Positions 5,733-25,076 of a stretch of DNA of 64,000 nt are shown here, piece after piece. The position numbers and the translations under genes were made by a program. Each line of letters begins with the position of its first letter. Positions within the stretch are counted from its first letter, which is position 1. The stretch comes from Paludibacteraceae bacterium. Lineage in GTDB: Bacteria; Bacteroidota; Bacteroidia; Bacteroidales; Paludibacteraceae. The notes under the pieces are model-generated. The model made no database searches. It saw only the letters and a program-made list of their open reading frames with translations, and was not told the DNA's origin. Location of the stretch: the NCBI GenBank assembly GCA_017479885.1, contig JAFVBR010000039.1, positions 180,581 to 244,580 on the forward strand, given 5' to 3'.

Positions 5733-5873
5733 TTATTCTGTGCTGTCTATCTCGCAGCCACAGGAGTTATAGAGATAAACTTTAGTACCTTTTACTTTGA
5801 TGCAATCGCCGTCTTGCATGTTTCGCGCCCATTGTTTCATGGTGGCTTGCGCATGTAAACTCAAGTGTGCCAT
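5733..5873 (-). CDS. 46-residue hypothetical protein
   Basis: A short frame that fills the space between 5721 and 5876. Its ATG lies 2 bases after the upstream stop. The sequence is a plausible small beta domain (MQDGDCIKVKGTKVYLYNS) ending with a Cys-Gly-Cys. No family recognised. Tight spacing and normal codon use support it. Confidence 0.45.
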   Translation of the reverse strand: MAHLSLHAQATMKQWARNMQDGDCIKVKGTKVYLYNSCGCEIDSTE

Positions 5874-5875
5874 AA

Positions 5876-6247
5876 TTAACCTATTCTTCTGCCAAGTTTA
5901 ATAATAAATACATCTTCATCGGGTGCGCCCCATTCAGGGTTGCCTCTGCCTATATCCAAGCCTTTGAACTCAAACAGCATTGTCGTTTTGCCGCCTTGCC
6001 CTTTGTGAAAACGGACTGCATCATACTGCCGTATGCCGTAACCAAGCAGTAGTTCACGTATCTTAAAGGTCGGGTAAGTGTACATCTTTTCAAATACACC
6101 ATCCCAGTATTTTTTCTGTCCGCGGTTTCTCCAATAGAGCAGGCGGTTGGCATAATACGGACGCAAATCGCGGTATTCTTCGTGCTTCTCGCCACGCTCT
6201 ATCATATCAAACCACTCGTATTTTAACGACAAATCCAGTGCGTACAT
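5876..6247 (-). CDS. ASCH-domain protein
   Basis: This 123-residue protein matches the ASCH (PUA-like) fold: LSLKYEWFDMIERGEKHEEY near the start, RPYYANR, then KYWDGVFEKM and a beta-rich end. In the family the first motif, basically K-W-x5-G-x-K-x3-R/Y, lines an RNA or nucleotide pocket. Phages commonly carry such proteins, with RNA binding or modified-nucleoside roles proposed. The start at 6247 lies 5 bases after the upstream stop and begins just before the domain. Confidence 0.65.
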   Translation of the reverse strand: MYALDLSLKYEWFDMIERGEKHEEYRDLRPYYANRLLYWRNRGQKKYWDGVFEKMYTYPTFKIRELLLGYGIRQYDAVRFHKGQGGKTTMLFEFKGLDIGRGNPEWGAPDEDVFIIKLGRRIG

Positions 6248-6251
6248 AACC

Positions 6252-6932
6252 TTACTCGTTTTGAGATTCATTATAATGGGAACGTATGTACACCTCATCT
6301 TCATCTGTTACGATGTACGCTAACTTCAGAAAGCGCATAGCCGTTTCGATGTTGTCGTCTGCTATCGGGAGGTAATCGTTTTTCAGTCGTGAAGTCAATG
6401 ATATGCGCTTGTTAATCACCTCACGCGCTTCGTTGATTCGGCTGTTCATTTCCTCTAATGCCTCACTAATGCGCTCTATCAACTCATCATACTCGGCACG
6501 CGCCTTTTTGTAAGCCGTTTCAAGTTTTGCATTTTGCTCTTTTATGGCTTTATTCTGTTCGTACACGTCACTGCTATACACCGCCTGTGGTTCAACGGCT
6601 AACATGTTTCTTCGACCGTTATAGTCTTTACCAAAACCGGGCACGAAACGCGGAATACCGTATTCGTCAAGCAATCCCGATGTCGTTGTTTGTTGCATAA
6701 CGGCTAACACTTTCTCGGCGTCCTCTTTGCTTGTGAACGCAATACGTCTGCCGATAAGCGGAATGGCATACACAACCAAATCAGGTTTCAACTCTTCTGT
6801 GAGTTGCGGTTTAGTCGGTTCTACGGGGAAAACGATGCCGTTCTCTGCCAGTTCGATTTTCTTGTAGGTCTTAATCTGTTCGGGGAAGAGGTTAAAAATC
6901 TCCAAGTCCGAGAGTTCTGCAAATTTCTTCAT
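6252..6932 (-). CDS. Hypothetical coiled-coil protein
   Basis: A 226-residue protein with an N-terminal mixed domain, then a long heptad coiled coil (about 120-180), and a short acidic end. The early part contains FPVEPTKPQLTEELKPDLVV and a basic segment (IGRRIAFTSKEDAEKV). It may be a scaffold or a DNA-metabolism accessory protein, but nothing visible decides this. Confidence 0.5.
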   Translation of the reverse strand: MKKFAELSDLEIFNLFPEQIKTYKKIELAENGIVFPVEPTKPQLTEELKPDLVVYAIPLIGRRIAFTSKEDAEKVLAVMQQTTTSGLLDEYGIPRFVPGFGKDYNGRRNMLAVEPQAVYSSDVYEQNKAIKEQNAKLETAYKKARAEYDELIERISEALEEMNSRINEAREVINKRISLTSRLKNDYLPIADDNIETAMRFLKLAYIVTDEDEVYIRSHYNESQNE

Positions 6933-6958
6933 GCTTCTAAAAATTTAGTTATTGAAAG

Positions 6959-7300
6959 TTATTTTATCTCAATTACATGAGCGTTATTGTACTTATATCT
7001 ACTTGCTACTTTTTCAGCGGTTGCCTTGTCATTAAACAACATGGCATAACTTGCATCGTGCGACCACCAAAAACTTTTTGTCTTGTTTCTATCCACAAGG
7101 AACAATCGTTTTATCAAATGTCGGTTGTATTGTGTGGATTGTACTATTGCAAACTTGCCTTTCGCGTATGTGCTAAATTTGCTCTTTTCTGCAAGGTAAG
7201 CGCGTTTCTCTCTGTCTGAATAAGGCTCAAAATCAGCATCTTCTTCAAAACAATCATATAAATCAGATAATGCCTCTGCCTCTGTTACGTAATCATTCAT
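6959..7300 (-). CDS. Hypothetical phage protein
   Basis: A 113-residue protein with an acidic N-terminus and a beta-rich C-terminal half (FLVDRNKTKSFWWSHDASYA). No motif recognised. It sits 13 bases from the next gene in the same direction. Confidence 0.5.
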   Translation of the reverse strand: MNDYVTEAEALSDLYDCFEEDADFEPYSDREKRAYLAEKSKFSTYAKGKFAIVQSTQYNRHLIKRLFLVDRNKTKSFWWSHDASYAMLFNDKATAEKVASRYKYNNAHVIEIK

Positions 7301-7313
7301 AACATTGTGCCAT

Positions 7314-7502
7314 TTAGGAGTTGTTTATATCTTTGAGGTTCACGCCGTCCACTTTGCCTTTGTCTATTGCCCTGCGAGCCTGCTTTGACAGATAGTGCTG
7401 TTTGCGAGTTCTGCCATGTTTGGTTCTCACATTTATGCGCTCTTCAAGGGCGTAACCCTCGCAAGTAACGGCGTAACATGCTTTTTTCATTGACGTTTTC
7501 AT
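7314..7502 (-). CDS. 62-residue basic protein
   Basis: A small, very basic protein (middle RTKHGRTRKQHYLSKQARRA) whose ATG overlaps the upstream stop by 4 bases. Its basic charge suggests nucleic-acid binding. No family recognised. Confidence 0.5.
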   Translation of the reverse strand: MKTSMKKACYAVTCEGYALEERINVRTKHGRTRKQHYLSKQARRAIDKGKVDGVNLKDINNS

Positions 7503-7852
7503 TGTGCTTTACATTTTTCTATAATAGAGTGTATAGTACACATATCTTCAGTACTCAATTTTTCAAGATTGGCAGGCTTATCGCAAAATTGCATAATAGC
7601 ACTTTTCATTTTGCTACGTTTATTTGCCTCTTCAATCTCTTTAATGTCTTTTTCTGTTGCATGACGTGCGTGAGAGTAATCGTTGCCCATCATTTTACCG
7701 TCAGACTTTCGCCATGTGTAATAGTCAGTCTTGAATTGTGCCTTACTTACACTTGTTACGGTCAGCAATTCTTTTCGTGGCGGATAATTGCCTACATAGA
7801 AGTAAATTTTATCACCGACCTTTATATCTTCAAAATTCTCATTAGCCCACAT
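7499..7852 (-). CDS. First gene of the leftward block, hypothetical
   Basis: A 117-residue protein, first behind the promoter at 7895-7926. The N-terminal half looks like a small beta barrel (FEDIKVGDKIYFYVGNYPPR), similar in feel to KOW/SH3-like folds. The C-terminal half is helical. Function unknown. Confidence 0.55.
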   Translation of the reverse strand: MWANENFEDIKVGDKIYFYVGNYPPRKELLTVTSVSKAQFKTDYYTWRKSDGKMMGNDYSHARHATEKDIKEIEEANKRSKMKSAIMQFCDKPANLEKLSTEDMCTIHSIIEKCKAQ

Positions 7853-7894
7853 GTTGTTTGTATTTAATTAAAGTGTTATTTTAATTTCACGCTG

Positions 7895-7926
7895 CAAAGG
7901 TAATACTTATTTTTGAAATGTGCAAA
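7895..7926 (-). promoter_or_regulatory. Promoter of the leftward phage block
   Basis: On the minus strand a TTTG (7926-7923) is followed after 20 bases by TACCTTTG (7902-7895), a full match to the Bacteroidetes primary-sigma pattern TTTG-N19/20-TAnnTTTG. It lies about 43 bases upstream of the first leftward start at 7852. Confidence 0.8.
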
Positions 7927-9198: not shown

Positions 9199-9786
9199 AT
9201 GAAGAAAACTATAATACTTGACAATGGTCACGGCATAGAAACGCCGGGCAAGCGGTCTCCGATATGGAAAGACGGCACGCAACTCTTTGAGTGGGAGTTT
9301 AACCGCGATGTGGTTCGTCATATTGCATCTAAACTGACCGCTCTCGGTTTCGATGTGCGAGTTATCGTTCCTGAATCGTCCGACATATCTCTTTCAGAGC
9401 GAGTACGCCGCACCAATGCTATATGCAAAGAAAGAGGTGCAGGCAACTGCGTTTTCATCTCAATACACGCCAACGCTGGCGGAGGTACAGGTTGGGAGGC
9501 TTATACCACACCCGGACAAAATAACTCTGACAAGTTCGCGGCTGCTCTCTATGAAGAAGCAGAGAAGAAATGGGGAAAACAATGGAAAATACGCAAGGAC
9601 ACTTCAGACGGAGATGCCGATAAAGAAGCAAATTTCCAAGTCATAAAAGGCGCAAACTGCCCTGCTGTACTCGTGGAGAATTTCTTTATGGACACAGAAA
9701 AGGACTGCCGATATATAATGTCTCCTGTCGGGCGAGAGGCTTGCGCAGATGTGGTTGTAGCGGCGATAAACTCCTATTGTAAATAA
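9199..9786 (+). CDS. N-acetylmuramoyl-L-alanine amidase (endolysin)
   Basis: This 195-residue enzyme matches the Amidase_3 zinc family. The first zinc ligand is in DNGHG (His11), the next in FISIHANAGG, and the catalytic Glu is in LVENFFM. It cleaves the bond between muramic acid and the stem peptide. It has no signal peptide and no cell-wall-binding domain, as is usual for endolysins of Gram-negative hosts. The protein therefore relies on the holin upstream to reach the wall. Confidence 0.9.
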   Translation: MKKTIILDNGHGIETPGKRSPIWKDGTQLFEWEFNRDVVRHIASKLTALGFDVRVIVPESSDISLSERVRRTNAICKERGAGNCVFISIHANAGGGTGWEAYTTPGQNNSDKFAAALYEEAEKKWGKQWKIRKDTSDGDADKEANFQVIKGANCPAVLVENFFMDTEKDCRYIMSPVGREACADVVVAAINSYCK

Positions 9787-10436: not shown

Positions 10437-11348
10437 ATGGGAAAAACAAGTAATGTAACAGTACGCAAGTTGGAGAGGTTTTGGCGGACGGTCAAGACCT
10501 ATATCAACAACAATGCCGTTTCCAAATTCAAAGAAGCGTTCACAACCAATGTGACGGTCGGCGCGGTTTCGGCAGGCACTCCTGTCGCAGCAGGCACTGA
10601 CATAGTAACGATAGTAAAGAATATGCTCGTTCAACTAAAAAGGGCGGTCATCGCAAGTTATCCGTCTGTTTCGTTGTCTAACAGCGGGACATTGTTCGGA
10701 GATTACGAGGTAGGTACAGAGATACACCCCGCTCTTGGCAGTTCTTATACTGACGGCAAGTTCACATCATATACCTCTCCAAGTGCCACTACGACACTCA
10801 ATGCAGGCTGTGTCAAGGGAGCGACAGCCTATTTCCGTGAGATGACAGCGTTATCGGGCAATACCGACACCTATATTTTGCCGCAAGGAACAACGACCTA
10901 TCGAGTAGAACAGGAGTATGGAGCAAGTACAGCCACAGCAAAGAACTCTGACGATAGCAATGCAGGATTACAAATAGTAGCAGGTGTATGTAGCAAGGGC
11001 GGAAACTACAATGCCTATCTTCGTCTTTTCACAGGCTTGTTTGCGAGTGTGGACGCTATTCCGACAAGCAACTTGCGCAGTTCCCTCACTATGGGCGCAC
11101 TTGTAAAATCAGTACCCTCTATGAGCCTTGCCTTTTCAAACAAGGTCGTGGTGATTGCCGTTCCCGCAAGTTACACCCTTATATCGGCAATAGAGCCGCT
11201 GACAGGTGAGGACGAAAGACCTTACCTCGCTAAAAACGGAGAGGCGGTACAGATAGCAGACATCAACGGTGATATGCACAATTACAAGTTGTATGCCTTT
11301 GCTTATGATGCGGTATTCGGTAAATCGGTAAACCTTGTATTCAGTTAA
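10437..11348 (+). CDS. Probable phage tail/virion protein
   Basis: A 303-residue protein with a basic helical N-terminus (about 1-35) and then a long Ser/Thr/Gly/Ala-rich beta region of a kind common in tail and fibre proteins. No enzyme motif is visible. It lies 5 bases before the next large tail-like gene. Virion role inferred from composition and position only. Confidence 0.5.
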   Translation: MGKTSNVTVRKLERFWRTVKTYINNNAVSKFKEAFTTNVTVGAVSAGTPVAAGTDIVTIVKNMLVQLKRAVIASYPSVSLSNSGTLFGDYEVGTEIHPALGSSYTDGKFTSYTSPSATTTLNAGCVKGATAYFREMTALSGNTDTYILPQGTTTYRVEQEYGASTATAKNSDDSNAGLQIVAGVCSKGGNYNAYLRLFTGLFASVDAIPTSNLRSSLTMGALVKSVPSMSLAFSNKVVVIAVPASYTLISAIEPLTGEDERPYLAKNGEAVQIADINGDMHNYKLYAFAYDAVFGKSVNLVFS

Positions 11349-11353
11349 GAGTT

Positions 11354-12610
11354 ATGGCAGGAAAAGATTATAGGACGAAAGGCACATACGGCTTGGGTGG
11401 TCAAGTGCGTATTGCGAATAAGAATAGCCATGTCGATTATGATTATGGTGCATACGACAGTTTCGATGATATTCCGCAGTCGTTATATGATACCGTGCAG
11501 ATAGGCAAGACTATCGGCATTGTAACTGACGGTAAGATTACTGAGTATTGGTGGCAGAAACAGAAAGACGGCACTCTCGGTTGGGTGATTAAGGGAGTGG
11601 ATAACGACACCCTCAAAGCCCTCATTGCTGCGGCTATGGAAAAGGGTGATGCGAAAGAGGTTATCGGCGTAGTCGGGTATGGCGACACATTGCCCGATGC
11701 GAATAATCTTGATGAGGGAGATTGTTTCCTTTATACCGATAATGAGAACGGACACGAACTCTTACTTGTTGAAGTTAAAAACGAGCAGACAGGAGTAAAA
11801 GGTTGGACTTCTATAACACCCTCAACAGAGGTGATATATAAGACTATCGCAGAAGAAAGCAAACTCTTTGTATGGAATGGAGAGGAATTTGCCGATGTAA
11901 CGGGCGAGGTGGTAGATGATACTATCTATGTCAATAACCTTAACACTTTACTGACTAAATCTCTTCCGCAAGGAGTTTACCAAGTCGTATTAGGGCAAAA
12001 AGGCTATGGCGGTACTGTTATCACCTCAATAGGGACAAACAAACTGCAACTCATCAAATGGGTACGCTCTACTGCCAAATTGACAGATTCTCTTTCTTCG
12101 GCGAAAAACATAGTAGAGGCTATTCCGACTACACCTCTCAACTTATCTGAATATGATTATGTCCCTACTGATACCGACCTCGCTTTTTTCAGTCAATATG
12201 ACATACTCTACACCTCAGGAGATGCAACGGTCAAAGGCTCGTCTTATGTCCTCTCCGTTACGGCTAATGGGCGTATCTTGGAGAATAAAGACGGATGGGC
12301 AGAGCCAAAGTCAAACAACACCGCATGGGAGTGGAACAATTATGCTTATAATGGGCATACTCACGAGATAGGCAGCATCTACGATGATAATGGTGATGAT
12401 TTGGCTATCGCAGACGAAATGGACGAATCGGCAGAGTTGGTCTTCCCTATTGAGAGAGAAACACTGCAATCAATCGCCAATGGTGAGTATGAGAGCGATG
12501 ATACCGCTATGTTCAGCGGAGCAAGCGGATACACCCCGATGACAAGCGCACAAGTAGCGGCTCTTGTGCAGGTGGCGTTAGACGCTTTCGATGCAGCAAG
12601 AGCAGAATAA
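11354..12610 (+). CDS. Probable tail fibre/appendage protein
   Basis: A 418-residue protein that begins TKGTYGLGGQVRI and contains repeated short beta segments and acidic loops. It lies between other late genes, and the DGR target follows two genes on. Likely part of the adsorption apparatus that holds the variable receptor-binding protein; inferred from order. Confidence 0.5.
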   Translation: MAGKDYRTKGTYGLGGQVRIANKNSHVDYDYGAYDSFDDIPQSLYDTVQIGKTIGIVTDGKITEYWWQKQKDGTLGWVIKGVDNDTLKALIAAAMEKGDAKEVIGVVGYGDTLPDANNLDEGDCFLYTDNENGHELLLVEVKNEQTGVKGWTSITPSTEVIYKTIAEESKLFVWNGEEFADVTGEVVDDTIYVNNLNTLLTKSLPQGVYQVVLGQKGYGGTVITSIGTNKLQLIKWVRSTAKLTDSLSSAKNIVEAIPTTPLNLSEYDYVPTDTDLAFFSQYDILYTSGDATVKGSSYVLSVTANGRILENKDGWAEPKSNNTAWEWNNYAYNGHTHEIGSIYDDNGDDLAIADEMDESAELVFPIERETLQSIANGEYESDDTAMFSGASGYTPMTSAQVAALVQVALDAFDAARAE

Positions 12611-12641
12611 ACGGAATAATAACTAAACAGATTATACAATT

Positions 12642-13274
12642 ATGGCACAGACAGTAGCAACCCCTGAAAATCTCAATGATTTTGCACAGCAATTTGGAAC
12701 GAGCCTCGCTGAAACATTAGGTGGCGGCGGTGGCAGTGGCGACAGCAATTATGTCGGTATTGGCAGTTATGTGGCTAAAAACGCAATCACGCACGATGAT
12801 ATCCCTCACTTATACATAGCAGTAGAGGCAAGTATCAGCCTTGAAAATGTCGCATTGCGCTATTGCCGCAAGAAGAAGACAAAATGCCGCAGGAAGAATC
12901 TTAACTATCACGATAATGGTGATGGGTATAACGCCAAGACACGCGGATGGCATCAAGTGTGGCGTTTGCCGCTACACGACACGAAGACGCCTTTGTTTAC
13001 TCCGATGCTCGTATCGGAGACACCCGCTTTCACTATAAGCGGCATTGCTTATTATGAGGTGACGGTTGAGAATTACGACACGTTCTATGAGTTCGCGACC
13101 TCCGATTTTGAAACCGGGTATCTTGACCAAGATAAAGAGCCTGTAACCATCGGGACTATCCTTTCAAAAGCAGGTGGTATCTGCCTTGTCAAAGACGGAA
13201 AGCAGATTTCTAACTTTGCTACGTTTGCGATGTTGTACAACGGAGAAAGGGATGAGTGGAGTATAGGTCGGTAA
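12642..13274 (+). CDS. Probable virion protein
   Basis: A 210-residue protein with a helical start, a Gly-rich hinge (ETLGGGGGSGDSN, about 25-37), a basic patch (CRKKKTKCRRKN) and a beta-rich end. The Gly hinge between a short anchor and a globular part is common in phage appendages. Its 3' end faces a leftward small RNA (13281-13360). Confidence 0.45.
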   Translation: MAQTVATPENLNDFAQQFGTSLAETLGGGGGSGDSNYVGIGSYVAKNAITHDDIPHLYIAVEASISLENVALRYCRKKKTKCRRKNLNYHDNGDGYNAKTRGWHQVWRLPLHDTKTPLFTPMLVSETPAFTISGIAYYEVTVENYDTFYEFATSDFETGYLDQDKEPVTIGTILSKAGGICLVKDGKQISNFATFAMLYNGERDEWSIGR

Positions 13275-13280
13275 GGACAT

Positions 13281-13316
13281 AAAAAAAGTGCCGACAAGAT
13301 AGAATCTTGACAGCAC
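13281..13316 (-). terminator. Intrinsic terminator of the putative small RNA
   Basis: On the minus strand GTGC (13316-13313) pairs with GCAC (13291-13288), enclosing CAAGAT paired with ATCTTG around a 3-base loop. Seven T follow directly. On the plus strand no T run follows, so it acts leftward only. Confidence 0.65.
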
Positions 13317-13356
13317 GGCGGCGATAGCATCGCAGAGCACGTCCTCGATAGCATCG
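13312..13356. repeat. Two 21-base near-direct repeats
   Basis: Copies at 13312-13332 and 13336-13356 match at 18 of 21 positions, with the outer parts (AGCACG and CGATAGCATCG) identical. They lie 24 bases apart, inside the putative small RNA. They could be twin loops or binding sites. Confidence 0.7.
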
Positions 13357-13365
13357 ATAACAATG

Positions 13366-13396
13366 CAAAGGTACAACTTTTTTCTGAATATACAAA
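13366..13396 (-). promoter_or_regulatory. Promoter of the putative small RNA
   Basis: Minus-strand TTTG (13396-13393), 19-base spacer, TACCTTTG (13373-13366), in an AT-rich setting. It is as good as the strongest gene promoters in the window, although no gene follows it. Confidence 0.75.
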
Positions 13397-13411
13397 CTTT
13401 TTTTTAGAAAA

Positions 13412-13840
13412 ATGAGCAATAAAATTACAAATACGGGTTTTGTGGGCAAGGTCGTGTCGGAATTGTCGGAGTTTGTGCGCTATTTGGTCGGTGTACGGTC
13501 GAAAGCGGACAAGAAAATCCTACGTGCCGAACTCGCGACTGAAAGTGCTACATTAAATGCCACCATTACCGCACAAAAAATAGATAGTGATAGAAAGATA
13601 AGCACTCTGACATCGGTTGAGAGCGCACATAATACCGCACACAACAATGCGGAAAAGGCTCTTGATACCAACTTAAAGGACGATGAACTGACTATTGCTA
13701 ACGCCTTTGAGAAAGTGCGTGCTGCGGTCGGAATGGAAGAGGACGGCGAGGTTGTCTTTGAAAATACCAACTACCTTGACAACTGCACAACCATAAAAGA
13801 GGCATTGATTGCCCTTGATAACGTTATTGCAAACTTATAA
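13412..13840 (+). CDS. Probable fibre/tail coiled-coil protein
   Basis: A 142-residue protein, mostly helical, with a Thr/Ala/Asn-rich central region (about 40-95) and a short closing domain (YLDNCTTIKEALIALDNVI). The end resembles the closing part of phage tail-fibre repeats. It directly precedes the DGR variable protein by 10 bases and may be its partner or stalk. Confidence 0.5.
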   Translation: MSNKITNTGFVGKVVSELSEFVRYLVGVRSKADKKILRAELATESATLNATITAQKIDSDRKISTLTSVESAHNTAHNNAEKALDTNLKDDELTIANAFEKVRAAVGMEEDGEVVFENTNYLDNCTTIKEALIALDNVIANL

Positions 13841-13850: not shown

Positions 13851-14987
13851 ATGGCAGAGTTACAACGCATAAAAGTTTTTCAGACCGAGGCAGAGTTCTG
13901 TAATATACGGCACTCGCTACATGTGCCAAGTACCGCGCATTGCGTAGAAACAAGAGAGGTGTATTTTCAGTGCGAGCGTAAGGCTAATATGGGTGATGTA
14001 GTGTTGTATGACAAGTTTCTTGAAGAAGAAATGCTTGTATATTACACGGAGTACAACGCAACCGCGTATCCGCTTTCCACATATACACCAACTGGCATTG
14101 TTGTCATTCCGCAATGGTTCTGCGGCGATGACTATGCTCGTGTTACGAGCCTTGTCAATATGTCTTGTACAACGCCTGAAACAGGAAAGGCAAGTAATAA
14201 CGCAACATCTTGGGATGGCGGCTCTGATATTTACTTGGTATGGGGTGGATTTGAGAGCGAGAATTGGATTTATACTAATATCTCGGAACTTACAGACTAT
14301 GGCACAGATGGCAACCGCTACCAAATATATGTTGATGGCGATAACAATCCGACAGGCGAAAGTAGTAACTGGGGACACATGCCGAGCGATAGTTACCATA
14401 CAGGTTATAAGGGGAGTACAGAGAGCAATAGCAGCGATAAAACTGTTCATTGGTACAATGGTATGGGAGCAGATTATAGATTGCCGAGTGCTTATACTAA
14501 CCGTTTAGAGCGGAATCCTCTTTATGGTCGTGGTGCTGACGGCAATCAAAGTTCTTTCTTGTCTGACTATAACGGCAAGCAGAATACACAATATATACTC
14601 AACCACGAGACTAAGCAACCCAACTGGCAGACTGATGAGCAGATAGATAATTCTTACAGAGGAGATAATTTGGGGCATTTCCCTGCCGCTCTTTGCTGCG
14701 CACGCTACCACACGGACGGCACAGAGGCAGGCGATTGGTATCTCCCCGCAGCAGGCGAGTTAGGTTGTATTATGCCGCGTTTCGCTATCATACAATCTGC
14801 TCTTAAAGCGGTTGCGGCTATTGCCCCGAACCTTGCAGTTCCTCTCTATGAGAACGGCCTCTATTGGTCGAGTTCAGAGTTCAGTGAGGACGATGCTTAC
14901 CGCTTGGACACGGGCAATGGTAACGTGAACTACATCGGTAAGTACGTCGACCGCTATGTCCGGGCGTTCCGGCTTCTGCGCATTTAA
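13851..14987 (+). CDS. DGR variable protein (probable receptor-binding protein, C-type-lectin-like C-terminus)
   Basis: This 378-residue protein ends in a C-type-lectin-like fold of the sort used by DGR targets: GDWYLPAAGELG at about 294-305, then YWSSSE and a closing YVRAFRLLRI. The last 50 codons are the variable repeat (14833-14985). Compared with the template, 17 codons differ, all through changes at template adenines. The start at 13851 was chosen because the longer frame from 13809 runs over the upstream gene. By position among tail genes it is most likely the adsorption tip of the phage. The fold presents the variable side chains on one surface, so diversification would change host range. 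Lectin fold and DGR link are clear; the receptor is unknown. Confidence 0.9.
   Translation: MAELQRIKVFQTEAEFCNIRHSLHVPSTAHCVETREVYFQCERKANMGDVVLYDKFLEEEMLVYYTEYNATAYPLSTYTPTGIVVIPQWFCGDDYARVTSLVNMSCTTPETGKASNNATSWDGGSDIYLVWGGFESENWIYTNISELTDYGTDGNRYQIYVDGDNNPTGESSNWGHMPSDSYHTGYKGSTESNSSDKTVHWYNGMGADYRLPSAYTNRLERNPLYGRGADGNQSSFLSDYNGKQNTQYILNHETKQPNWQTDEQIDNSYRGDNLGHFPAALCCARYHTDGTEAGDWYLPAAGELGCIMPRFAIIQSALKAVAAIAPNLAVPLYENGLYWSSSEFSEDDAYRLDTGNGNVNYIGKYVDRYVRAFRLLRI
14833..14985 (+). repeat. DGR variable repeat (VR)
   Basis: 153 bases that align without gaps to the template repeat at 15732-15884. There are 25 differences and 128 identities. Every difference is at a position that is A in the template (A to G, C or T). 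The last 27 bases before the end, which are GC-rich and hold only one A, are identical and correspond to the initiation region for homing. The VR ends within the stop codon of the target gene. Confidence 0.97.
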
Positions 14988-15006
14988 TCTTTGAACCTTA
15001 AGCCTT

Positions 15007-15033
15007 GCCGCCCAGCGTCTGTACGCGGGCGGC
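15007..15033 (+). other. Hairpin/cruciform downstream of VR
   Basis: A stem of 7 base pairs (GCCGCCC with GGGCGGC), one bulged A at 15014, 4 more pairs (GCGT with ACGC) and a 4-base loop (CTGT). It lies 21 bases after VR. In the Bordetella phage DGR a similar hairpin just after VR is needed for efficient target recognition. No T run follows, so a terminator is less likely. Confidence 0.75.
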
Positions 15034-15086
15034 GGGGATAAGAAATTATATATTTATTAACAACTTAAAAAAGAAAGGAGAAAACC

Positions 15087-15557
15087 ATGATTGATTTGAC
15101 TTCGGCAGACAAGCCGAAAATCCGTAAAGAAAAGCCTTTTGAAGACACACTGCTGTACAAGCAGACAATGGACTTTCGTGAGGCTATCAAGGGTATCTTG
15201 CAGAACATGAACGCACGTCAAGTGCCGATGTATGGCGTACCGATGAACGATGCACTCCGTTCTGCGCTCGTCAATTACCGCCTTTGCTACTTGGAAGGCG
15301 CGAACAATTACAATGACAAAGTGGCGTATATGAGAGCATCTTGTGAGAAATTCGCAGAAGTGGATGTCCTTGTGAACGAATGGTACGCAGTAGGAATAAT
15401 CAACAAAAAGACCTATTGCCGCTTTGCAGCCATTGAGGGTGGCATATTGGAGGGGTCAAAGAGATTCTACGAGGCTATCAAGAAAAGACGAGATAACTTG
15501 GAAGATGAAGTTAAAACCCACGAAACATCTGTAAATGGCGATGCTGAAACAAAATAA
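15087..15557 (+). CDS. avd: Avd-like DGR accessory protein
   Basis: This 156-residue basic protein has four predicted helices (about 25-45, 52-75, 78-105 and 108-135) and lies between VR and TR, the usual place of Avd. The pattern ends with a helix reading GGILEGSKRFYEAIKKRR, like the closing helix of the Avd/S23-type four-helix bundle. Avd binds the reverse transcriptase and the template RNA and is needed for retrohoming in Bordetella phage. It is about 30 residues longer than the Bordetella protein, with a disordered tail. Family call is from position and helix pattern, not from strong sequence identity. Confidence 0.75.
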   Translation: MIDLTSADKPKIRKEKPFEDTLLYKQTMDFREAIKGILQNMNARQVPMYGVPMNDALRSALVNYRLCYLEGANNYNDKVAYMRASCEKFAEVDVLVNEWYAVGIINKKTYCRFAAIEGGILEGSKRFYEAIKKRRDNLEDEVKTHETSVNGDAETK

Positions 15558-15731
15558 ACTGAATAATAACCCATAAACTTAAAGAAGATATGCGATTACC
15601 CGTACAATGCTACTATCTTGCATAAAGAAATAGCGTAACGGTTGGGAGTCAAGATTAAATGGGTGGCACACTCCGCAAGGAGTAATGGCAGCATAAGTAT
15701 AAGATATGTCTGAAAGATGCCACAATGACTG

Positions 15732-15884
15732 TTGCAGTTCCTCTCAATGAGAACAACAACTATTGGTCGAGTTCAGAGAACAGTGAGAACAATGCTTACA
15801 ACTTGAACACGAACAATGGTAACATGAACAACAACAATAAGAACAACAACAACTATGTCCGGGCGTTCCGGCTTCTGCGCATTT
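15732..15884 (+). ncRNA. DGR template repeat (TR), with flanking template RNA
   Basis: 153 bases matching VR, placed between the Avd-like gene and the reverse transcriptase. Read in the VR frame it holds 20 AAC/AAT codons, so mutation at their first two bases can reach 15 amino acids and never a stop. A 173-base stretch upstream (15559-15731) without a gene probably belongs to the template RNA leader, and 45 bases separate TR from the reverse transcriptase start. An Asn-rich frame runs through TR but is a by-product of the codon design and is not called as a gene. Confidence 0.95.
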
Positions 15885-15929
15885 TGTATTACTCCTATTT
15901 GCAAATCGCATATCTTCTATTTTTGAAAT

Positions 15930-17210
15930 ATGTTAGTAGAGTATGAAGAACTCTATGATGCCTATATTGATTGTCGAAAGCGTAAGCGTAGTTCCACAAA
16001 CTGCCAACAGTTTGAGATTGACTCAACTCGGAAGTTGTGGCAGTTGTGGAAAGACCTCAATAACGGCTCATATACAATAGGTAGGTCTATCGCTTTTATA
16101 GTCCACCACCCGAAAGACCGCGAAGTGTTTGCGGCTGATTTCAGAGATAGAATTGTTCATCATCTGATAATTCGGAGGATTGAAAAATTGCTTGAAGAAG
16201 AGTTTATCGAAGATTCGTATTCGTGTCGCAAGGGCAAAGGTACTCTTTATGGTATAGAACGCTGCGAAATGTATATGCGAGAAGTGAGTGAAAACTACAC
16301 CAAGAAAGCATATATACTTAAAGGAGATTTTAAGAGTTTCTTTATGCGCATCAATAAACCGAAGATGTATCAAGCCATTTGTGATTTGCTTGACAAACGA
16401 GGTAACTTTGATGAGGAGAGCAAAACCTTTATGAAACACGTGATATGGCTCATCGTATTCAACAGACCGCAAGACAACTGCATACGCAAACAGCCTAAAT
16501 CTGCGTGGAAATGTCTGCCAAAAGATAAAAGTCTGTTCAGTTGTGAGGCGGATTATGGAGTTCCTATCGGCAACTTGACGAGTCAGATTTTCGCTAACTT
16601 GTTTATGAGTGCCTTTGACCATTGGATAAAAGATACTCTTGGGATAAAGGAGTACGGCAGATATGTTGATGACTTTTATATTGTAATGTTATATTCGCAA
16701 GTGCTTGTCGCTCTAATACCGCAAATAAGAAAGTTTCTGTCTGACTATGGCGTAACACTGCACCCTCACAAAGTGTCTATTCAAGAGGTAGAAAAGGGTA
16801 TTCAGTTTTTGGGTCAGGTGATAAAGCCTTATGGCAGATTGGTAGCACGTAAAACGATAGGTACTCTTTACACGAAATTGCAGACCTTTGACGACTTTAT
16901 TGAATGGCACAAAGTACATGGTGAAAGGTTAAGTGAGGAGGATATAGAATATATAGTAAGCAGTGTAAACTCATACTACGGCTATTTCAGGCAAAGCAAG
17001 AGTTATCGACTGCGTAAGAAAATAGCGCAATCGGAACTTATAAAGCCGATACTTGAATATGCCACATTTGACACAAACTATACCAAAATTATTAAACTGA
17101 AGAAAGATGAAAAAGAAAGTAACAATATCGAGGCTTTTAGCCCGATGGGGCATGTTCGCCTTTCTCGGCGTAGTCATAGGAGGGTGCAAGACAACAAAGC
17201 CGTTGGTTAG
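15930..17210 (+). CDS. DGR reverse transcriptase
   Basis: This 426-residue enzyme has the ordered reverse transcriptase motifs: catalytic Asp133 in LKGDFKSFF, GVPIGNLTSQIFANLF at about 210-225, and YVDD at 245-248, then a HPHKVSIQEVEKGIQFLG thumb-side motif. The IGNLTSQ form of motif 4 is the signature of DGR enzymes, where other group II-like enzymes have QG. It copies the template RNA into cDNA while misreading adenines. There is no maturase or endonuclease domain. The last 104 bases overlap the next gene in another frame, so the final 35 residues (basic, low quality) may be non-essential. Confidence 0.96.
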   Translation: MLVEYEELYDAYIDCRKRKRSSTNCQQFEIDSTRKLWQLWKDLNNGSYTIGRSIAFIVHHPKDREVFAADFRDRIVHHLIIRRIEKLLEEEFIEDSYSCRKGKGTLYGIERCEMYMREVSENYTKKAYILKGDFKSFFMRINKPKMYQAICDLLDKRGNFDEESKTFMKHVIWLIVFNRPQDNCIRKQPKSAWKCLPKDKSLFSCEADYGVPIGNLTSQIFANLFMSAFDHWIKDTLGIKEYGRYVDDFYIVMLYSQVLVALIPQIRKFLSDYGVTLHPHKVSIQEVEKGIQFLGQVIKPYGRLVARKTIGTLYTKLQTFDDFIEWHKVHGERLSEEDIEYIVSSVNSYYGYFRQSKSYRLRKKIAQSELIKPILEYATFDTNYTKIIKLKKDEKESNNIEAFSPMGHVRLSRRSHRRVQDNKAVG

Positions 17211-19036: not shown

Positions 19037-19455
19037 AACGTGACGAGATAATCCCAATAAACATACCTATCTACAACACCTGCTTGTGGGTATTCTTTGG
19101 CTCAAAAGAAAATTGTGCCAATGCCTTGCAAAAGAATGGTCTTTCAGAACGAGCGGCAAAAGCATTTCTTGCCGAGGTTAATGACGAGCAATGCGATGGT
19201 ATTTACATCTACAACAAAGAGGAAAATGTAGCCTTATTGTGGGTGAAAAAGATACCTGTTACAATTATGGAGTATGCTACGCTTGTGCATGAGATAGAGC
19301 ATACTGTGTTCTATCTGTTTGAGCGTATAGGAATACAGCACACAAGAGAGAGTGATGAAGCGTATGCCTACCTGCAAGGCTATTTATTCGCAGAGATTGA
19401 TTGTGCAATAAATACTCTGAAAGAAAATGAAAGCAGTGAGGAGAAGAAAGAATGA
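19033..19455 (+). CDS. HExxH metalloprotease-like phage protein
   Basis: A 140-residue protein with HEIEH at residues 86-90, the zinc motif of gluzincin-type peptidases, and a following ESDEAYAYLQGY helix that could supply the third ligand (Glu). Small proteins of this type occur in Bacteroidetes phages. Whether it cuts peptides is untested. It overlaps the following glycosyltransferase gene by 4 bases. Confidence 0.55.
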   Translation: MKRDEIIPINIPIYNTCLWVFFGSKENCANALQKNGLSERAAKAFLAEVNDEQCDGIYIYNKEENVALLWVKKIPVTIMEYATLVHEIEHTVFYLFERIGIQHTRESDEAYAYLQGYLFAEIDCAINTLKENESSEEKKE

Positions 19456-20675
19456 AAGAGCAAGTTATTATTTCATTAACATCATGGCGTAAGCGCATAG
19501 GCAATATACCTCGTGTGCTTGATACAATATGGGAGCAGACATATCAACCCGATATGGTTGTTCTCAACCTTGCAGAAGAGGAGTTTTATAACAAGACATT
19601 GCCTGCCGCCGTTCAAGGATATATTGTTTCTCACCAACGGCTACGTGTGAACTGGGTCAAACAGAACACCCGCGTTTGGAAAAAGTTTCTGCCAACGTTC
19701 AATCTTTACCCTGACGCTTTGATAATACCGATAGATGACGATATACTTTATCCTCCGACCATGATAGAGGATTTTATGCGCGTACATGAGCGTTTCCCCG
19801 ATAGTCCAATCAGCGGTAATAGATTTTGGTATAAAGGTGTCAAATGTCATTGTGGTTGTGCAAGTCTTGTGCAAGCGAAACACTTTGCAGGATGGCAAGA
19901 TTATTATAGCCGTACTCTCCGTGCTAATTGCCCGTCAAGTGATTTGTTCTATACATATCTTGCTGCGGCTAATGGTTATTTCTACGAGGAGAGTGATGTC
20001 GATTATATGACGACAGCAATCACTTATAATGAAGTTGATGGTTATTCTCGCTCTATGCCGGGTAATAAACTCGCAGTAAGCAGGAAAGCAATCTTTACTG
20101 CTATGGGTGTAGAGGTAGTACGCATGTTTACACATGATGACATTAAACCTTTCTGTGTGTTAGGTGCGGCACAAACAGAAAAAGGCAAGGAGATAGAGAC
20201 AGAACTTCTTTCGTGGCTCGTGCCTAATTTTAATGTGTATGTGGTTCGCCATGACGGACGGACTTTTGAATATGCGGCAATACATTTTCTCCAAGAAGTG
20301 ATGACACGTTGCGATGCTCCGTGTTTCTATTTGCATACAAAGGGGGCATACTATACGCGCAATGTATCTCACAGGGTGCGTAATATGTGGAAACATGAGT
20401 TTGTAGAAAAGCGTGACGAGTATTTGCGTGCCGTATTGTCAGAGAAAGCCATAGTCGCCACTCCTTACACTGGCACTGACAAAGTGACATGGTATAATGG
20501 TTGGTGTGCCAATGCCGCCGCTATTCGCAAGCTGAACATAATAAAAACCGATGACCGTTTTTACTATGAATACAAATTATTCGATAAAGCAGAGGTAATA
20601 GGTATGCGTATGGGAGATGTGAATGGCGATAATCGTATTGCCATGCACAATGAGTTAAAAGAAAGATTTGATTGA
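19452..20675 (+). CDS. Glycosyltransferase, probably two GT domains
   Basis: A 407-residue protein. The N-terminal half (about 1-230) is GT2-like: ISLTSWRKRIGNIPRVLDTI, then PDALIIPIDDDILYPPTMIE with the metal-binding DDD. The C-terminal half has a second motif set of GT-like proteins (FYLHTKGAYYTRN). Glycosyltransferases in a prophage often alter the host surface glycan and shut out related phages, or decorate the virion. The donor and acceptor sugars cannot be told. It is coupled to a second glycosyltransferase. Confidence 0.7.
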   Translation: MKEQVIISLTSWRKRIGNIPRVLDTIWEQTYQPDMVVLNLAEEEFYNKTLPAAVQGYIVSHQRLRVNWVKQNTRVWKKFLPTFNLYPDALIIPIDDDILYPPTMIEDFMRVHERFPDSPISGNRFWYKGVKCHCGCASLVQAKHFAGWQDYYSRTLRANCPSSDLFYTYLAAANGYFYEESDVDYMTTAITYNEVDGYSRSMPGNKLAVSRKAIFTAMGVEVVRMFTHDDIKPFCVLGAAQTEKGKEIETELLSWLVPNFNVYVVRHDGRTFEYAAIHFLQEVMTRCDAPCFYLHTKGAYYTRNVSHRVRNMWKHEFVEKRDEYLRAVLSEKAIVATPYTGTDKVTWYNGWCANAAAIRKLNIIKTDDRFYYEYKLFDKAEVIGMRMGDVNGDNRIAMHNELKERFD

Positions 20676-20676
20676 T

Positions 20677-21411
20677 ATGGACATATTGTATGTAGTAGGT
20701 TCAGGTTCAACTTGGAGTAATAACGAATTACGTTATTCATTGAGAAGTATAGCCAAGTTCGGAAGAAACATTGAAAGGGTGTATCTCGCAGGTTACAAAC
20801 CCGCTTTTGTTAGTGAAGAAGTCAGGCATATACCCTGTACTGACGATTCTAAACGCAAGCACAAGAATATAATGCACAAGGTGCTGACTGCTATTGAGAA
20901 GAGTAATATAAGTAACCGTTTTCTCATTAGTTCAGATGACCATTTCTATATAAGGGAAACAGATTTTAACCGCCTGCCTGTTTATTATCAGTTAAGAGCA
21001 TTACCGCAGACATTCTCCGAGAAGCAGTTAAAGAACAATTACTACAAGAGCCTTGCAGACACGCGCAGCCTGCTTACCAAATGGGGATTACCTATATATC
21101 AAACCAATCCGCACTGCAACACACATTTTGATACCACACTATATCGTATGGCTCAACCGCTTTTCTTTGAGGCTATGGAGTTGCCTTATGGCGGCGAACT
21201 TAACTGTCTAATGGGAAATCTGCTTATCAGCGCAGGCGAAAAACCAAGTTTCTTCAAGGATTGCAAGATAGATACTTTCTATAATGAAGAGGACTTATTG
21301 CAACGACTAAAGGATGTTGAATGTTTTTCTATCGCTGACACGGCTATTCAATATGGGATAGGTGAGTATCTGCAACGACTATTCCCTAACAAATGCAAAT
21401 ACGAAAAATGA
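20677..21411 (+). CDS. Stealth-like glycosyl/sugar-phosphate transferase
   Basis: A 244-residue protein opening with DILYVVGSGSTWSNNELRYS and carrying NRFLISSDDHFYI, where the SSDD patch would bind metal. This order resembles the Stealth/CpsY group of capsule transferases. The ATG at 20677 was preferred over a TTG at 20668 that overlaps the upstream gene. It ends by overlapping the nuclease gene by 4 bases. Confidence 0.6.
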   Translation: MDILYVVGSGSTWSNNELRYSLRSIAKFGRNIERVYLAGYKPAFVSEEVRHIPCTDDSKRKHKNIMHKVLTAIEKSNISNRFLISSDDHFYIRETDFNRLPVYYQLRALPQTFSEKQLKNNYYKSLADTRSLLTKWGLPIYQTNPHCNTHFDTTLYRMAQPLFFEAMELPYGGELNCLMGNLLISAGEKPSFFKDCKIDTFYNEEDLLQRLKDVECFSIADTAIQYGIGEYLQRLFPNKCKYEK

Positions 21412-21905: not shown

Positions 21906-23096
21906 CTATTTCGGAGGGTTAAGTACATAGTCTATCACTTTACGGTTTGCATCGTCCACTTTTGACCAGTCGAAAGATATGTACCTCTTATCTGCAAGCG
22001 ATGTACCTGTGTGTCCGAGTGCTTTGCCTATAATACGCTCCGAAATATCCAATTTGTCCGCATAGGTCGCCCAAGTATAACGTGCGAGATAATAGTAGCA
22101 ACGAGGGAACTGCAATTCTTTGCCTATCTTGCGCAAATGCTTATTGAAAAAACTCTGAAAGGTTTTGTACGTAGTGTAATGCTCCGCAAAGTTAAGCATA
22201 TACCTTGTACCTGCGTATTTATCAATAATTGCCTGCGCTTCGGGCTGTATTGTGAGATGTACGGGTTGGGGTTCGGAATGTGCTATCTTTGTACGTATGT
22301 ACGATAATTCAGGAGTAGTCGGCTTTGGCATATAAAAAAGGTCTATCGGGTTGATGCCGCAGAAATAGAATGAGAGCATAAAGAAATCACGCACCGCAGC
22401 ATCTACTGGTTCAAGGGCGGCATTTTTCAGTGCAAGAAATTTGTCTAACGGCAAAAACTCTTTCTCTTTTGCCGCTTGCTTTATTTTGAACTTACGGAAT
22501 GGATATAATGATTGGTCTATCACTTCATCATCTATTGCCTTGTTGAAAACGCGGCGAAGACAACGCATAATGATTGAGCGAGTATTAGTACGGATACCTG
22601 CATCTTCCATCCAACGGTCAAAAGCACATAATGTTTTATAGTTTATCTCGTCAAATGCTATTTCGTCAGTTTTCATGTATTCATGTAATGTGCGACTTGC
22701 ATAGTCGTATATGCCGCGTGTTCCGCTGTTGCGGTATTGCTCTGATACGATTGTTATCTGACGACTAAAAGAGACGCTTGCGGTTTTGTCTCCATTCTCC
22801 GCATATTGCTTTATGTCTTTTGCGTTCATTGTACGCAACCTGCCTGACCGTTCAAGTATAAGGACGGCATTGAAATATGTAAGATAGGTATTATATAAGG
22901 TGGCGTTCACCTCCTTTGCATTAGGCGCACTCTTGATGAGTACCATTGACGGTTCGCCCTTGAAATACTTGTCGGGAATACATACGCCAGTTGAAACGGT
23001 GGTCGTGCTTGAAGCATTACAGATGAGCAGACGAATAGGTAGATTGCCCTTTTTATCGGGTCTGCGTTTGTCAATAAAGAAAGATAGTTTAGCCAT
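21906..23096 (-). CDS. int: Tyrosine recombinase (phage integrase)
   Basis: This 396-residue recombinase has an N-terminal Arm-like domain (SFFIDKRRPDKKGNLPIRLL), a SAM-like core-binding domain (about 95-195) and a catalytic domain. Visible catalytic residues are Arg in YYLARYTWAT, His in GKALGHTG and the nucleophile Tyr in KRYISFDW. The place of the first catalytic Arg reads CGINPIDLF, so this Arg is missing or displaced, as in several Bacteroidetes recombinases. It integrates the element, most likely at the tRNA-Arg gene 230 bases away. It reads in the same direction as the truncated tRNA, so the host tRNA promoter could drive it. Start at 23096 is just before the Arm domain. Confidence 0.9.
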   Translation of the reverse strand: MAKLSFFIDKRRPDKKGNLPIRLLICNASSTTTVSTGVCIPDKYFKGEPSMVLIKSAPNAKEVNATLYNTYLTYFNAVLILERSGRLRTMNAKDIKQYAENGDKTASVSFSRQITIVSEQYRNSGTRGIYDYASRTLHEYMKTDEIAFDEINYKTLCAFDRWMEDAGIRTNTRSIIMRCLRRVFNKAIDDEVIDQSLYPFRKFKIKQAAKEKEFLPLDKFLALKNAALEPVDAAVRDFFMLSFYFCGINPIDLFYMPKPTTPELSYIRTKIAHSEPQPVHLTIQPEAQAIIDKYAGTRYMLNFAEHYTTYKTFQSFFNKHLRKIGKELQFPRCYYYLARYTWATYADKLDISERIIGKALGHTGTSLADKRYISFDWSKVDDANRKVIDYVLNPPK

Positions 23097-23269: not shown

Positions 23270-23326
23270 ATATTCAATAGATTTATAACTTATACGCCCG
23301 TTTATTCCTATGTTTTGTCGGTTTTG

Positions 23327-23376
23327 CGACCCACAGCTTAGAAGGCTGTTGCTCTATCCAGCTGAGCTACCGAACC
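23327..23376 (-). pseudogene. tRNA-Arg(TCT), 5' part only, cut at the integration site
   Basis: Reading leftward from 23376: acceptor strand GGTTCGG, D arm, a full anticodon arm (stem ACAGC/GCTGT at 23349-23333) with loop CTTCTAA giving anticodon TCT, then variable-loop bases GTGGGTC. After this no T arm (no GTTCRA) and no CCGAACC closing strand are found. About 25 bases of the gene are thus missing and replaced by element sequence. The 3' part is expected at the far end of the element, outside the window. Confidence 0.75.
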
Positions 23377-23450
23377 ATCGCGTTCTCTCCGCGCCTTTTG
23401 CCTTGCATTCATACAAAACAATCGTGCGTAAGAAAATCCAAATGCGGGTG

Positions 23451-23482
23451 CAAAAGTACTGCAATTTTTGCAAATACACAAA
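23451..23482 (-). promoter_or_regulatory. Promoter of the tRNA-Arg remnant, reading toward the integrase
   Basis: Minus-strand TTTG (23482-23479), 20 bases, TACTTTTG (23458-23451). It lies about 75 bases upstream of the tRNA 5' end. With the tRNA gene cut, its transcript continues into the element and toward the integrase gene. It overlaps the promoter of the rightward regulator. Confidence 0.7.
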
Positions 23483-23498
23483 TTTTATATTACCTTTG
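23467..23498 (+). promoter_or_regulatory. Promoter of the PUL regulator gene
   Basis: TTTG (23467-23470), 20 bases, TACCTTTG (23491-23498), 10 bases before the ATG at 23508. It decides the start, as the longer open frame from 23310 would contain the promoter and the tRNA remnant. Confidence 0.8.
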
Positions 23499-23507
23499 CC
23501 TGCAATT

Positions 23508-25076
23508 ATGAATACTTTTCGTAAGATACTAACTTCTGTTATGGTGCTGAATGCATCTGTTTGCTGTGCTAACACCATGTGTGACTCTCTATTCCGTGTG
23601 TTTGACCACGAACTGGAGCTGACACAATATTATATTAATATACGTCAGGCGCGAATCGACAGTCTGCTCCATGTGCGCTCATCTGCTGCCGACACATACG
23701 ACATCAACTGCATCTTGACTTATGAATACCAGCACTACAAGAGCAAAGAGGCCCGCGACTACGTATTGCTCAATCTTGAGAGTGCCGAAACCGATGCAGA
23801 TGAAGACAGGCGTTTGGAATCTACCATACGACTTGGTTTTCTGCTTGCCTCGACCGGTAATTTCAACGAAGCGGTTGATGTAATGACTCCGTTGAAGAGC
23901 AGTGTAATGTCATTAGCTGAGAAGGCGGCATATTATGATTGCATGAATCATATATACGGCGAGGCGGGTTTCTATAGCAATACAGAGACCATGCGTCAGC
24001 GCTATTTTCACCTTGCTGACTTGTATGATGACAGCCTGTCTCTGGTTCTGCCCTCCAACTCAGTAAGGCACTATCGCCAGTTGGAAGCGCAGTTGCGCAA
24101 CAGAGGAATGTACTCGTCGTCGCTTTCAATAAGCGACAGTCTGCTTGCCTCGACCGATGAATATTCCCAAGCGTATGCAGCTTACGCTTTTTGCCGTTCA
24201 GAGACCTACCGAATGATGGGCGATGAGCAGAGTCAGTTGGAGTGGTTGCTGAGGTCGGCTATAGCCGATGTTCGAAACGGAATAACCGACAACGGCTCAT
24301 CGTGGATGGTGGCGCGTATATGCTACAACAAAGGCGACTTGAAGCGTGCGTACCGCTACATAGAGTATTCGCTCGACAACTCCAATATATATGGTGCAAC
24401 TCTGCGTCACGGTCAGGTGGGCCCGCTGATGTCGATAATCAACAACGCTTACCAGCATCGCCTTCGTCGTCAGCAGGCTATGCTATACGGATTGCTTGCA
24501 GGAATCAGTGTTTTGTCGGTGGCATTGGTTTTCCTGTTGTTGCTTATTCACAGAAGAAACCGCAAACTGCACCGCCTCCACCGACAAACGGAGTCGCTCA
24601 ACGAGGAAATGAGCAGGATGAACGAGCAATTGCGGCAGACTAATCTTTCGCTTCGCGAGTCCAATCACGTGAAAGAAGAGTATATTGCGCACTATCTGAA
24701 TCTGTATTCCGAGTATATCGACCGACTTAAGCATCTGAAGCGTGACCCCGAGTTCACGCAGCATGAAGTTGAGCGCTTCTATCAGGTGTTTGACAGCACT
24801 TTTCTCAGTATTTATCCCGATTTTGTGGAGCAGTTCAACTCACTTTTGCAAGACGATAGCCGTATTATTCTCAAGAAGGGCGAACTATTGAACACCGAGT
24901 TGCGTATCTTTGCTCTTATAAGACTTGGTATCACCAACTCTGCCAAGATAGCGGAGTTGCTTCGCTATTCGGCAAATACCATATATAACTATCGTGCCAA
25001 AATAAAGAACAATGCCAAAGGCAACCGCGATGACTTTGAGGAGGCGGTTCAGCGGATAGGTACGTTTACGTTGTGA
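23508..25076 (+). CDS. PUL-linked regulator: TPR-like periplasmic part, one membrane span, DUF6377-type DNA-binding end
   Basis: This 522-residue protein has a signal-like N-terminus, a helical TPR-type sensor region (about 30-310), one membrane segment (about 328-350, LLAGISVLSVALVFLLLLIH), a coiled coil, and a C-terminal domain with ELRIFALIRLGITNSAKIAE and YSANTIYNYRAKIKNNAKG, which forms an HTH. This is the layout of the DUF6377/TPR regulators that accompany SusCD loci in Bacteroidetes. It probably senses a glycan signal in the periplasm and turns on the adjacent susC operon. It lies 169 bases upstream of susC in the same direction. Confidence 0.75.
   Translation: MNTFRKILTSVMVLNASVCCANTMCDSLFRVFDHELELTQYYINIRQARIDSLLHVRSSAADTYDINCILTYEYQHYKSKEARDYVLLNLESAETDADEDRRLESTIRLGFLLASTGNFNEAVDVMTPLKSSVMSLAEKAAYYDCMNHIYGEAGFYSNTETMRQRYFHLADLYDDSLSLVLPSNSVRHYRQLEAQLRNRGMYSSSLSISDSLLASTDEYSQAYAAYAFCRSETYRMMGDEQSQLEWLLRSAIADVRNGITDNGSSWMVARICYNKGDLKRAYRYIEYSLDNSNIYGATLRHGQVGPLMSIINNAYQHRLRRQQAMLYGLLAGISVLSVALVFLLLLIHRRNRKLHRLHRQTESLNEEMSRMNEQLRQTNLSLRESNHVKEEYIAHYLNLYSEYIDRLKHLKRDPEFTQHEVERFYQVFDSTFLSIYPDFVEQFNSLLQDDSRIILKKGELLNTELRIFALIRLGITNSAKIAELLRYSANTIYNYRAKIKNNAKGNRDDFEEAVQRIGTFTL

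Follow-up and report, generated by a model that had tools for sequence, protein, structure and literature searches.

A Probable Two-Target Diversity-Generating Retroelement in an 86.4-kb Prophage of a Paludibacteraceae Bacterium

Introduction

A 64,000-nucleotide stretch of a Paludibacteraceae genome (assembly GCA_017479885.1, 2.80 Mb in 50 contigs; C5:180581-244580, where C5 is contig JAFVBR010000039.1; hereafter "the window") carries a reverse transcriptase (RT) gene beside a pair of closely similar repeats, which raises the question of whether these belong to a diversity-generating retroelement (DGR) and which proteins such an element would diversify. A preliminary description, made from the sequence of the window, took the locus for a complete DGR aimed at a phage adsorption protein. 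We find that the element is a genuine phage DGR whose template has a match in another gene as well, one that lies 74 kb off in the early region of the same prophage; we consider a working two-target DGR in one 86.4-kb prophage very probable. For the role of the second target we offer a tentative proposal. Below, G000 is this genome, G262, G138, G318, and G291 are related genomes, and L numbers denote loci.

The DGR Cassette

The template repeat (TR) and the variable repeat at the end of the first target gene (VR1 and T1, Table 1) align without gaps over 153 bases, and 25 of 25 mismatches fall on TR adenines, exactly as the preliminary description had reported; 14 are A to G, 8 A to T, and 3 A to C. 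The chance that 25 random differences would all lie on A is 9e-14, and when the detector was reset to C, G, or T in place of A, it found no repeats on this contig. AAC or AAT accounts for 20 of the 50 TR codons. The last 30 bases of TR are identical to the VR end in this genome, and a single C/T difference is found there in G138 and G318. A template end (IMH*) that differs from the VR end (IMH, initiation of mutagenic homing) is a trait of phage BPP-1.

The RT matches RVT_1 (2.4e-17) and phrog_1423, reverse transcriptase (1.6e-85). The solved structure nearest to it is 8ub7 ("Reverse transcriptase", 4.6e-29), which we take to be the Bordetella DGR RT complex, and a maturase comes next at 5.4e-9. 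In a tree of 34 RTs, in which group II intron RTs are the one outside class compared, support for the separation of the five group II sequences is 100/100 and the window RT stands with the DGR RTs on the side of the BPP-1 Brt; the tree omits L029 and L031 (internal stops), L040, L044, and L046 (not entered), and L043 (for which the script gave no open reading frame, ORF). The two RT motifs and the coordinates of the target, the accessory ORF, and the RT given in the preliminary description all agree with our own results. The accessory ORF sits in the position of avd; it has no Pfam match, and a search against the PDB returned weak matches only, none meaningful. The RT, the accessory ORF, and both target genes are open reading frames. 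The A-only differences, the RT tree, and the hairpin after the VR and own-template bases in relatives described below support what the preliminary description had claimed: the window element is a genuine phage DGR.

A Second Target 74 kb Away

A search of this genome with TR returned a second full-length match, VR2, in which 28 of 28 differences from TR again fall on TR adenines. Nineteen of these 28 sites are also altered in VR1, and 11 of the 19 carry another base there. VR2 ends a second target gene, T2, which is the third predicted gene of a rightward run beside the repressor gene, with the gene for a Sak4-like protein directly next to it (genes around T2 were called with a simple ORF script). 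T1 aligns to residues 76-380 of T2 with 43% identity, and the N-termini are unlike, as they are in every T1/T2 pair; neither protein has a strongly hydrophobic N-terminal segment. The preliminary description's statement that the element is aimed at an adsorption protein is thus half of the picture, since the same TR also matches T2 in the early region. In 50,697 phage records, tblastn with T2 gave no match at E 1e-5, and viral contigs scanned with the RT and with a T2 alignment yielded no relative.

Table 1. Positions of the DGR features and of the prophage ends
Feature	Location	Strand	Remarks
T1, first DGR target gene, 378 aa	window 13851..14987	+	ends in VR1; C-terminal Lcl_C-like domain
VR1	window 14833..14985	+	25 mismatches to TR, each at a TR adenine
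GC-rich hairpin after VR1	window 15003..15037	+	loop CTGT; z -4.6 over 65 nt after VR1
Accessory ORF in avd position, 156 aa	window 15087..15557	+	from ORF calling
TR	window 15732..15884	+	55 adenines in 153 bases; noncoding copy
DGR reverse transcriptase, 426 aa	window 15930..17210	+	motifs IGNLTSQ, YVDD
T2, second DGR target, 380 aa	C5:120662-121804		outside window, 58.8 kb before first window base; ends in VR2
VR2	C5:121650-121802		74 kb upstream; 74.9 kb from RT
Prophage tyrosine integrase	window 21906..23096	-	
Right attachment repeat, 50 bp	window 23328-23377 = C5:203908-203957	n/a	adjoins integrase
Left attachment repeat, 50 bp, perfect copy	C5:117468-117517		outside window; overlaps complete tRNA-Arg (TCT)

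The Two-Target Layout in Related Prophages

Searches covered 358 genomes of the family and a sample of 393 from the order. Four of the 358 family genomes (G000, G262, G138, and G318) have an RT with at least 66% identity to that of the window, the next best being 45%, and full-length T2 occurs in 5 of the 358, namely these four and G291; among the 393 order genomes, this genome alone has full-length T2. That all four RT carriers are among the five T2 carriers has a chance of 7e-9 if genomes are taken as independent, a figure that overstates the weight, which is truly far less, because the RT carriers are two pairs of kin. Each of the four RT-carrying genomes pairs a near VR, ~1 kb from its RT, with a distal one at 25-75 kb: the distal VR lies 74.9 kb from the RT here, 70.9 kb in G262, 25.3 kb in G138, and 26.4 kb in G318, and it is on the opposite strand in the last two. 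The pair is therefore present in three relatives. The G262 prophage is nearly the same as this one, whereas G138 holds another kind of phage, with portal phrog_156 and an SU10-type capsid as against phrog_64 and phrog_29 in the G000 type, and G318 is like G138 by its listed ORF starts. T2 is distant from the structural genes in both phage types, and a methyltransferase gene lies near it, at 6.7 kb here and at 0.6 kb in G138. The fifth T2 carrier, G291, has a related prophage (G291:C1:3948-82856; L074, L078-L081) that keeps T2 and its hairpin; this prophage has no match to T1, the accessory ORF, or the RT, and the G291 assembly, which is 82% complete, has no RVT_1 match.

Elsewhere in the family there are 23 other RT loci on 21 contigs, of which 15 have one near VR and 8 none that was found; a clean second VR was found at 0 of the 23. 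We disregarded a weak match, with 6 mismatches at A and 3 others, that links the two RT loci of G141. The controls of this survey gave single chance matches, one T-specific in G278 and one G-specific in G318. In G138:C3, 80,000 of 234,695 bases were read, and a VR on another contig would go undetected.

The relatives also allow the template and its copies to be compared between genomes. The TRs of G000 and G262 differ at one site, C against T, and both VRs of G000 carry the C and both VRs of G262 the T. At all diagnostic sites, where two TRs differ and the genome's own TR base is not A (12 ordered pairs of the four genomes, with sites re-used), the own template's base is present in 197 of 206 cases for VR1 and in 202 of 206 for VR2. 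Between G000 and G262 the VRs are far more divergent than their surroundings, with 36/153 differences in VR1 against 86/982 outside it and 26/153 in VR2 against 51/985. Nonsynonymous (dN) and synonymous (dS) divergence are 0.378 and 0.059 in VR1 as against 0.050 and 0.280 in the rest of T1, and 0.245 and 0.031 in VR2 as against 0.035 and 0.126 in the rest of T2; outside the VRs both genes are under purifying selection, and their proteins are, by this pattern, conserved there. Taken together, the pattern fits one template that would have been copied to both sites since the lineages parted, and it bears on activity in the past.

T1 and T2 also seem to exchange flanks. In the 45 nt before VR1 there are 39/45 matches to this genome's own T2, as against 24/45 to T1 of G262 (flanks compared: window:14743-14832 and G000:C5:121560-121649), and in G262 VR2 is followed by the same hairpin as VR1; it is from these two similarities that we propose the exchange.

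Hairpins after Both Variable Repeats

A hairpin is found in the 65 nt after the VR for nine of nine VRs of the group, that of G291 included (z -3.9 to -5.3), and after none of the four TRs (z -0.8 to 1.8). The loops read CTGT, CTGA, CTGAT, or CTGAC. In three of the four RT-carrying genomes (G000, G138, and G318) the stems after VR1 and VR2 differ and the start of the loop is kept, which speaks for a function of the hairpin at both sites. These values come from a fold-based test, which replaced a bulge-free stem finder that gave no stem or a different one at the VRs of G000, G262, and G291. Outside the two-target group the fold-based test was mixed, in that 7 of 16 other VRs reached z <= -2.8 and 2 of 8 other TRs gave -4.7 and -5.5.

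Comparison with Known Systems

One of the closest known systems is that of Bordetella phage BPP-1 (NC_005357), which shares with the present element the order target, avd, TR, RT, the restriction of differences to A (17/17 over 119 bases), and a hairpin after the VR with none reported as part of TR. It differs in having one A-only VR in our scan, a GAAA loop rather than CTGT, and a clearly named Avd where ours is uncertain. The BPP-1 record (L180) lists a "variable region 2" in bbp36 (33229-33558), upstream of exonuclease and annealing genes; it has no match to the BPP-1 TR (best 28/60) and was not counted as a VR.

Distal second targets, some of them beside counter-defence genes, are already published, and the two-target layout is known. 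In Quimbyvirus a first VR lies by the tail genes and a second in a distal nonstructural gene near methyltransferases, and, as here, it is a prophage in a tRNA gene of a Bacteroidales host; the Quimbyviridae differ in being kin of Vequintavirinae and Ounavirinae by terminase and in an RT in overlapping frames, the likeness is one of published description, and the passages in question mention neither shared bodies nor hairpins of the targets (PMC8008677). In four human-gut prophage species, likewise compared by published description, counter-defence genes lie near a distal second VR (PMC12629997). Two VRs are also on record for Faecalibacterium phages (PMC11792537); in our scan of one of them, Lagaffe (MG711461), the second VR (32602-32706) lies in a gene with an FGE (formylglycine-generating enzyme) domain directly before the exonuclease gene. 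Lagaffe differs as a contractile-tail phage of a Firmicute with other target domains (PMC11792537). In the Tentaclin-type DGRs nd4 and nd12 one TR feeds two targets, and these differ in that both targets are inside the DGR cassette and one VR is in the 5' part of its gene (PMC10743442). According to the text of one large DGR survey, its method would miss remote targets (PMC8144416). Among the literature matches listed, there is no paper on the present prophage group.

The Bacuni phages F1, F2, and F4 have a VR near the RT and a distant VR, and targets with DUF1566, an Lcl_C-like domain (PMC8143477). They are 40-kb phages with an RT 38-41% identical to the window RT and a VR of ~103 bases; in our scan of F4 (MT806185) the distal VR lies between genes for a C5-methyltransferase and DNA polymerase A. 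The same host is infected by F1 and F2 despite 15 single-nucleotide polymorphisms in the secondary VR, whereas F1 and F4 have different hosts and most of the differences between them lie in the VR beside the RT (PMC8143477). If "secondary" denotes the distal VR, as we read the text and table of that paper, this host pattern would, by analogy, fit T1 as the determinant of tropism and another job for T2.

Of 90 phage records with an RT match, seven were scanned whole or nearly whole. The layout of one near and one distal VR appears in two of the seven (Lagaffe and F4); BPP-1, Dulem virus 37 (50,000 of 53,793 bases), and MT835523 have one VR, Haboob (L182; 50,000 of 50,033 bases) has two, and QDWS (L184) has three. 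Scans around the RT only gave two VRs for Magia and one each for F2, BS-TP1, a Segatella plasmid, and VP58.5. We note that in Haboob and QDWS the RT cassette lies near recombination and methyltransferase genes, away from tail genes. In Dulem virus 37 (L181), a gene at 30454-31599 has the same product name as the DGR-side gene (19409-20488) and lies near a gene for the restriction alleviation protein Lar; no VR match to TR was found in it.

Roles of the Two Targets

By analogy with BPP-1, the RT and the accessory protein would copy the TR transcript into cDNA that is random at template adenines, and this cDNA could replace either VR; the two have the template's 3' end in common, and a hairpin follows each. 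VR1 ends T1, probably a receptor-binding protein, so adsorption could change. VR2 ends T2, which would have the same body and lectin-like end; it is probably cytosolic, because its N-terminus is probably helical and lacks a signal peptide, and from its place among the genes it may be made early. What T2 binds is the most conjectural step: some variable factor of the host or of a rival phage. We put forward, as our favored reading of T2 and at less than even odds, that the same TR diversifies an outer T1 and an early, cytosolic T2 that matches a variable host factor, for example a defence protein.

For T1, a role as receptor-binding protein is plausible. In the window itself, the preliminary description's placement of the target among tail genes is loose: the tape measure, ~22 kb upstream, is the nearest scanned tail-annotated gene, and the genes directly upstream of T1 (window 10437-13840) gave no informative match in profile scans. 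In G138, however, T1 is on the strand of the portal and capsid genes and at most ~8 kb from them. The first 48 residues of T1 have no match above the inclusion threshold among the other proteins of five prophage regions and therefore lend no support that way to a virion-docking role. In PADLOC, neither T1 nor T2 gave anything at E 0.01.

A number of observations count against the account given above. Most of the sequence is common to T1 and T2, and their role could be common as well. The C-type-lectin-like end that the preliminary description saw in T1 is recovered in part, as a match to Lcl_C, which we take to be lectin-like, at E 1.3e-5, below the Pfam cut-off, and the T2 C-terminus also matches Lcl_C below that cut-off. 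The structure prediction proposed earlier for T1 did yield a model, from an 8-row alignment, with a mean pLDDT (predicted local distance difference test) of 38.9, too poor for use; a model of T2 from G262, also from 8 rows, is poor as well (mean pLDDT 48.7), with a helix over residues 2-52 at low confidence. The "Avd-like" label is only weakly borne out, since hhalign against seven known or presumed Avds gave 29% probability (E 6e-4). Differences at sites other than A occur in the relatives, at 2/28 in VR1 of G262, 3/15 in VR1 and 1/11 in VR2 of G138, and at least 1 in VR1 of G318. The loops of the group depart from GRNA, the published consensus for phage DGR hairpins (PMC3240598), although GRNA is a trait of the published phage examples and not of all DGRs. 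Finally, in the Bacuni phages both targets are interpreted by the authors as adhesion proteins (PMC8143477).

That last view leads to the most serious rival, in which T2 is a second adhesin that, like T1, would work extracellularly, carried on virions or displayed on the surface of the lysogen. The shared region from T2 residue 76 to the end and the Bacuni authors' reading of both targets as adhesion motifs (PMC8143477) favor it, yet T2 stands by repressor and recombination genes in the G000 type and far from structural genes in both phage types, lacks a strongly hydrophobic N-terminal segment, and differs from T1 at the N-terminus in every pair; we judge this reading unlikely. Still less probable is a one-target DGR in which T2 has no function of its own and is a copy that happens to be hit in trans. 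The targets are paralogues that seem to exchange flanks, as such a history would have it, but purifying selection acts on T2 outside VR2, T2 is present in both phage types, whose portal and capsid genes are unlike, its hairpin is kept with a stem unlike that of VR1 in three of four genomes and a conserved loop, and T2 persists in G291, where no RVT_1 was found in an assembly 82% complete.

The remaining alternatives concern the element as a whole. One genome shows one state of each VR, which is also what a DGR that once worked and no longer does would present; we think this improbable to a high degree, given that the RT, the accessory ORF, and both targets are open, that the VRs follow the one-base template difference between two close prophages, and that they have diverged far beyond their surroundings. 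A chance repeat, or ordinary recombination between paralogues without any DGR, can draw on the apparent flank exchange, and we regard it as practically discounted: the A-only differences at both sites, whose chance value was computed for VR1 alone, already contradict it, as do the lack of C-, G-, or T-specific repeats on the contig, the DGR-type RT, and a noncoding TR that has no hairpin.

The proposal that T1 is outer and T2 early and cytosolic would mean, if true, that one DGR evolves host range twice over. Second targets in the early region recur in unlike phages (the two types here, F4, Lagaffe, and Quimbyvirus), and if the proposal held for these, it would describe a general phage strategy. 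As evidence for a two-target DGR, the present case unites paralogous targets whose N-termini differ, VRs that at nearly all diagnostic sites keep the base of their own template, a hairpin of its own after each VR, and recurrence in two phage types that differ in portal and capsid genes. It turns a loose published hint, that second targets lie near counter-defence genes, into a testable question: what is the binding partner of a hypervariable protein beside repressor and recombination genes?

Prophage Setting and Other Observations

The prophage is placed at ~86.4 kb because a perfect 50-bp repeat occurs at the tRNA-Arg gene and beside the integrase gene (Table 1); the window contains its final 23 kb. 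Its genes include those for a repressor, a Sak4-like annealing protein, portal, major head, and tape-measure proteins, and its terminase has its best match in Bacteroides phage BS-TP2 (62% identical). An amidase gene lies at window 9199-9786. Between the DGR and the integrase, two genes (window 19452-21411) that are glycosyltransferase-like by eye are kept in the prophages of G262 (98-99.8%) and G291 (61-68%). In window 23310-25076, a SusR-type regulator frame starts over the right attachment repeat, its true start probably being further in, and a SusC-type gene follows.

This genome also holds a second, separate DGR outside the window (L015, G000:C36:4903-7924). Its RT (5051-6055, minus strand) has the motifs IGNLTSQ and YMDD, its target frame (6638-7924, minus strand) is FGE-like in appearance, and an ORF beside it is one that we presume to be HRDC-like. 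The VR of this element (6640-6777) differs from its TR (4907-5044) at 16 positions, and 16 of 16 are at A.

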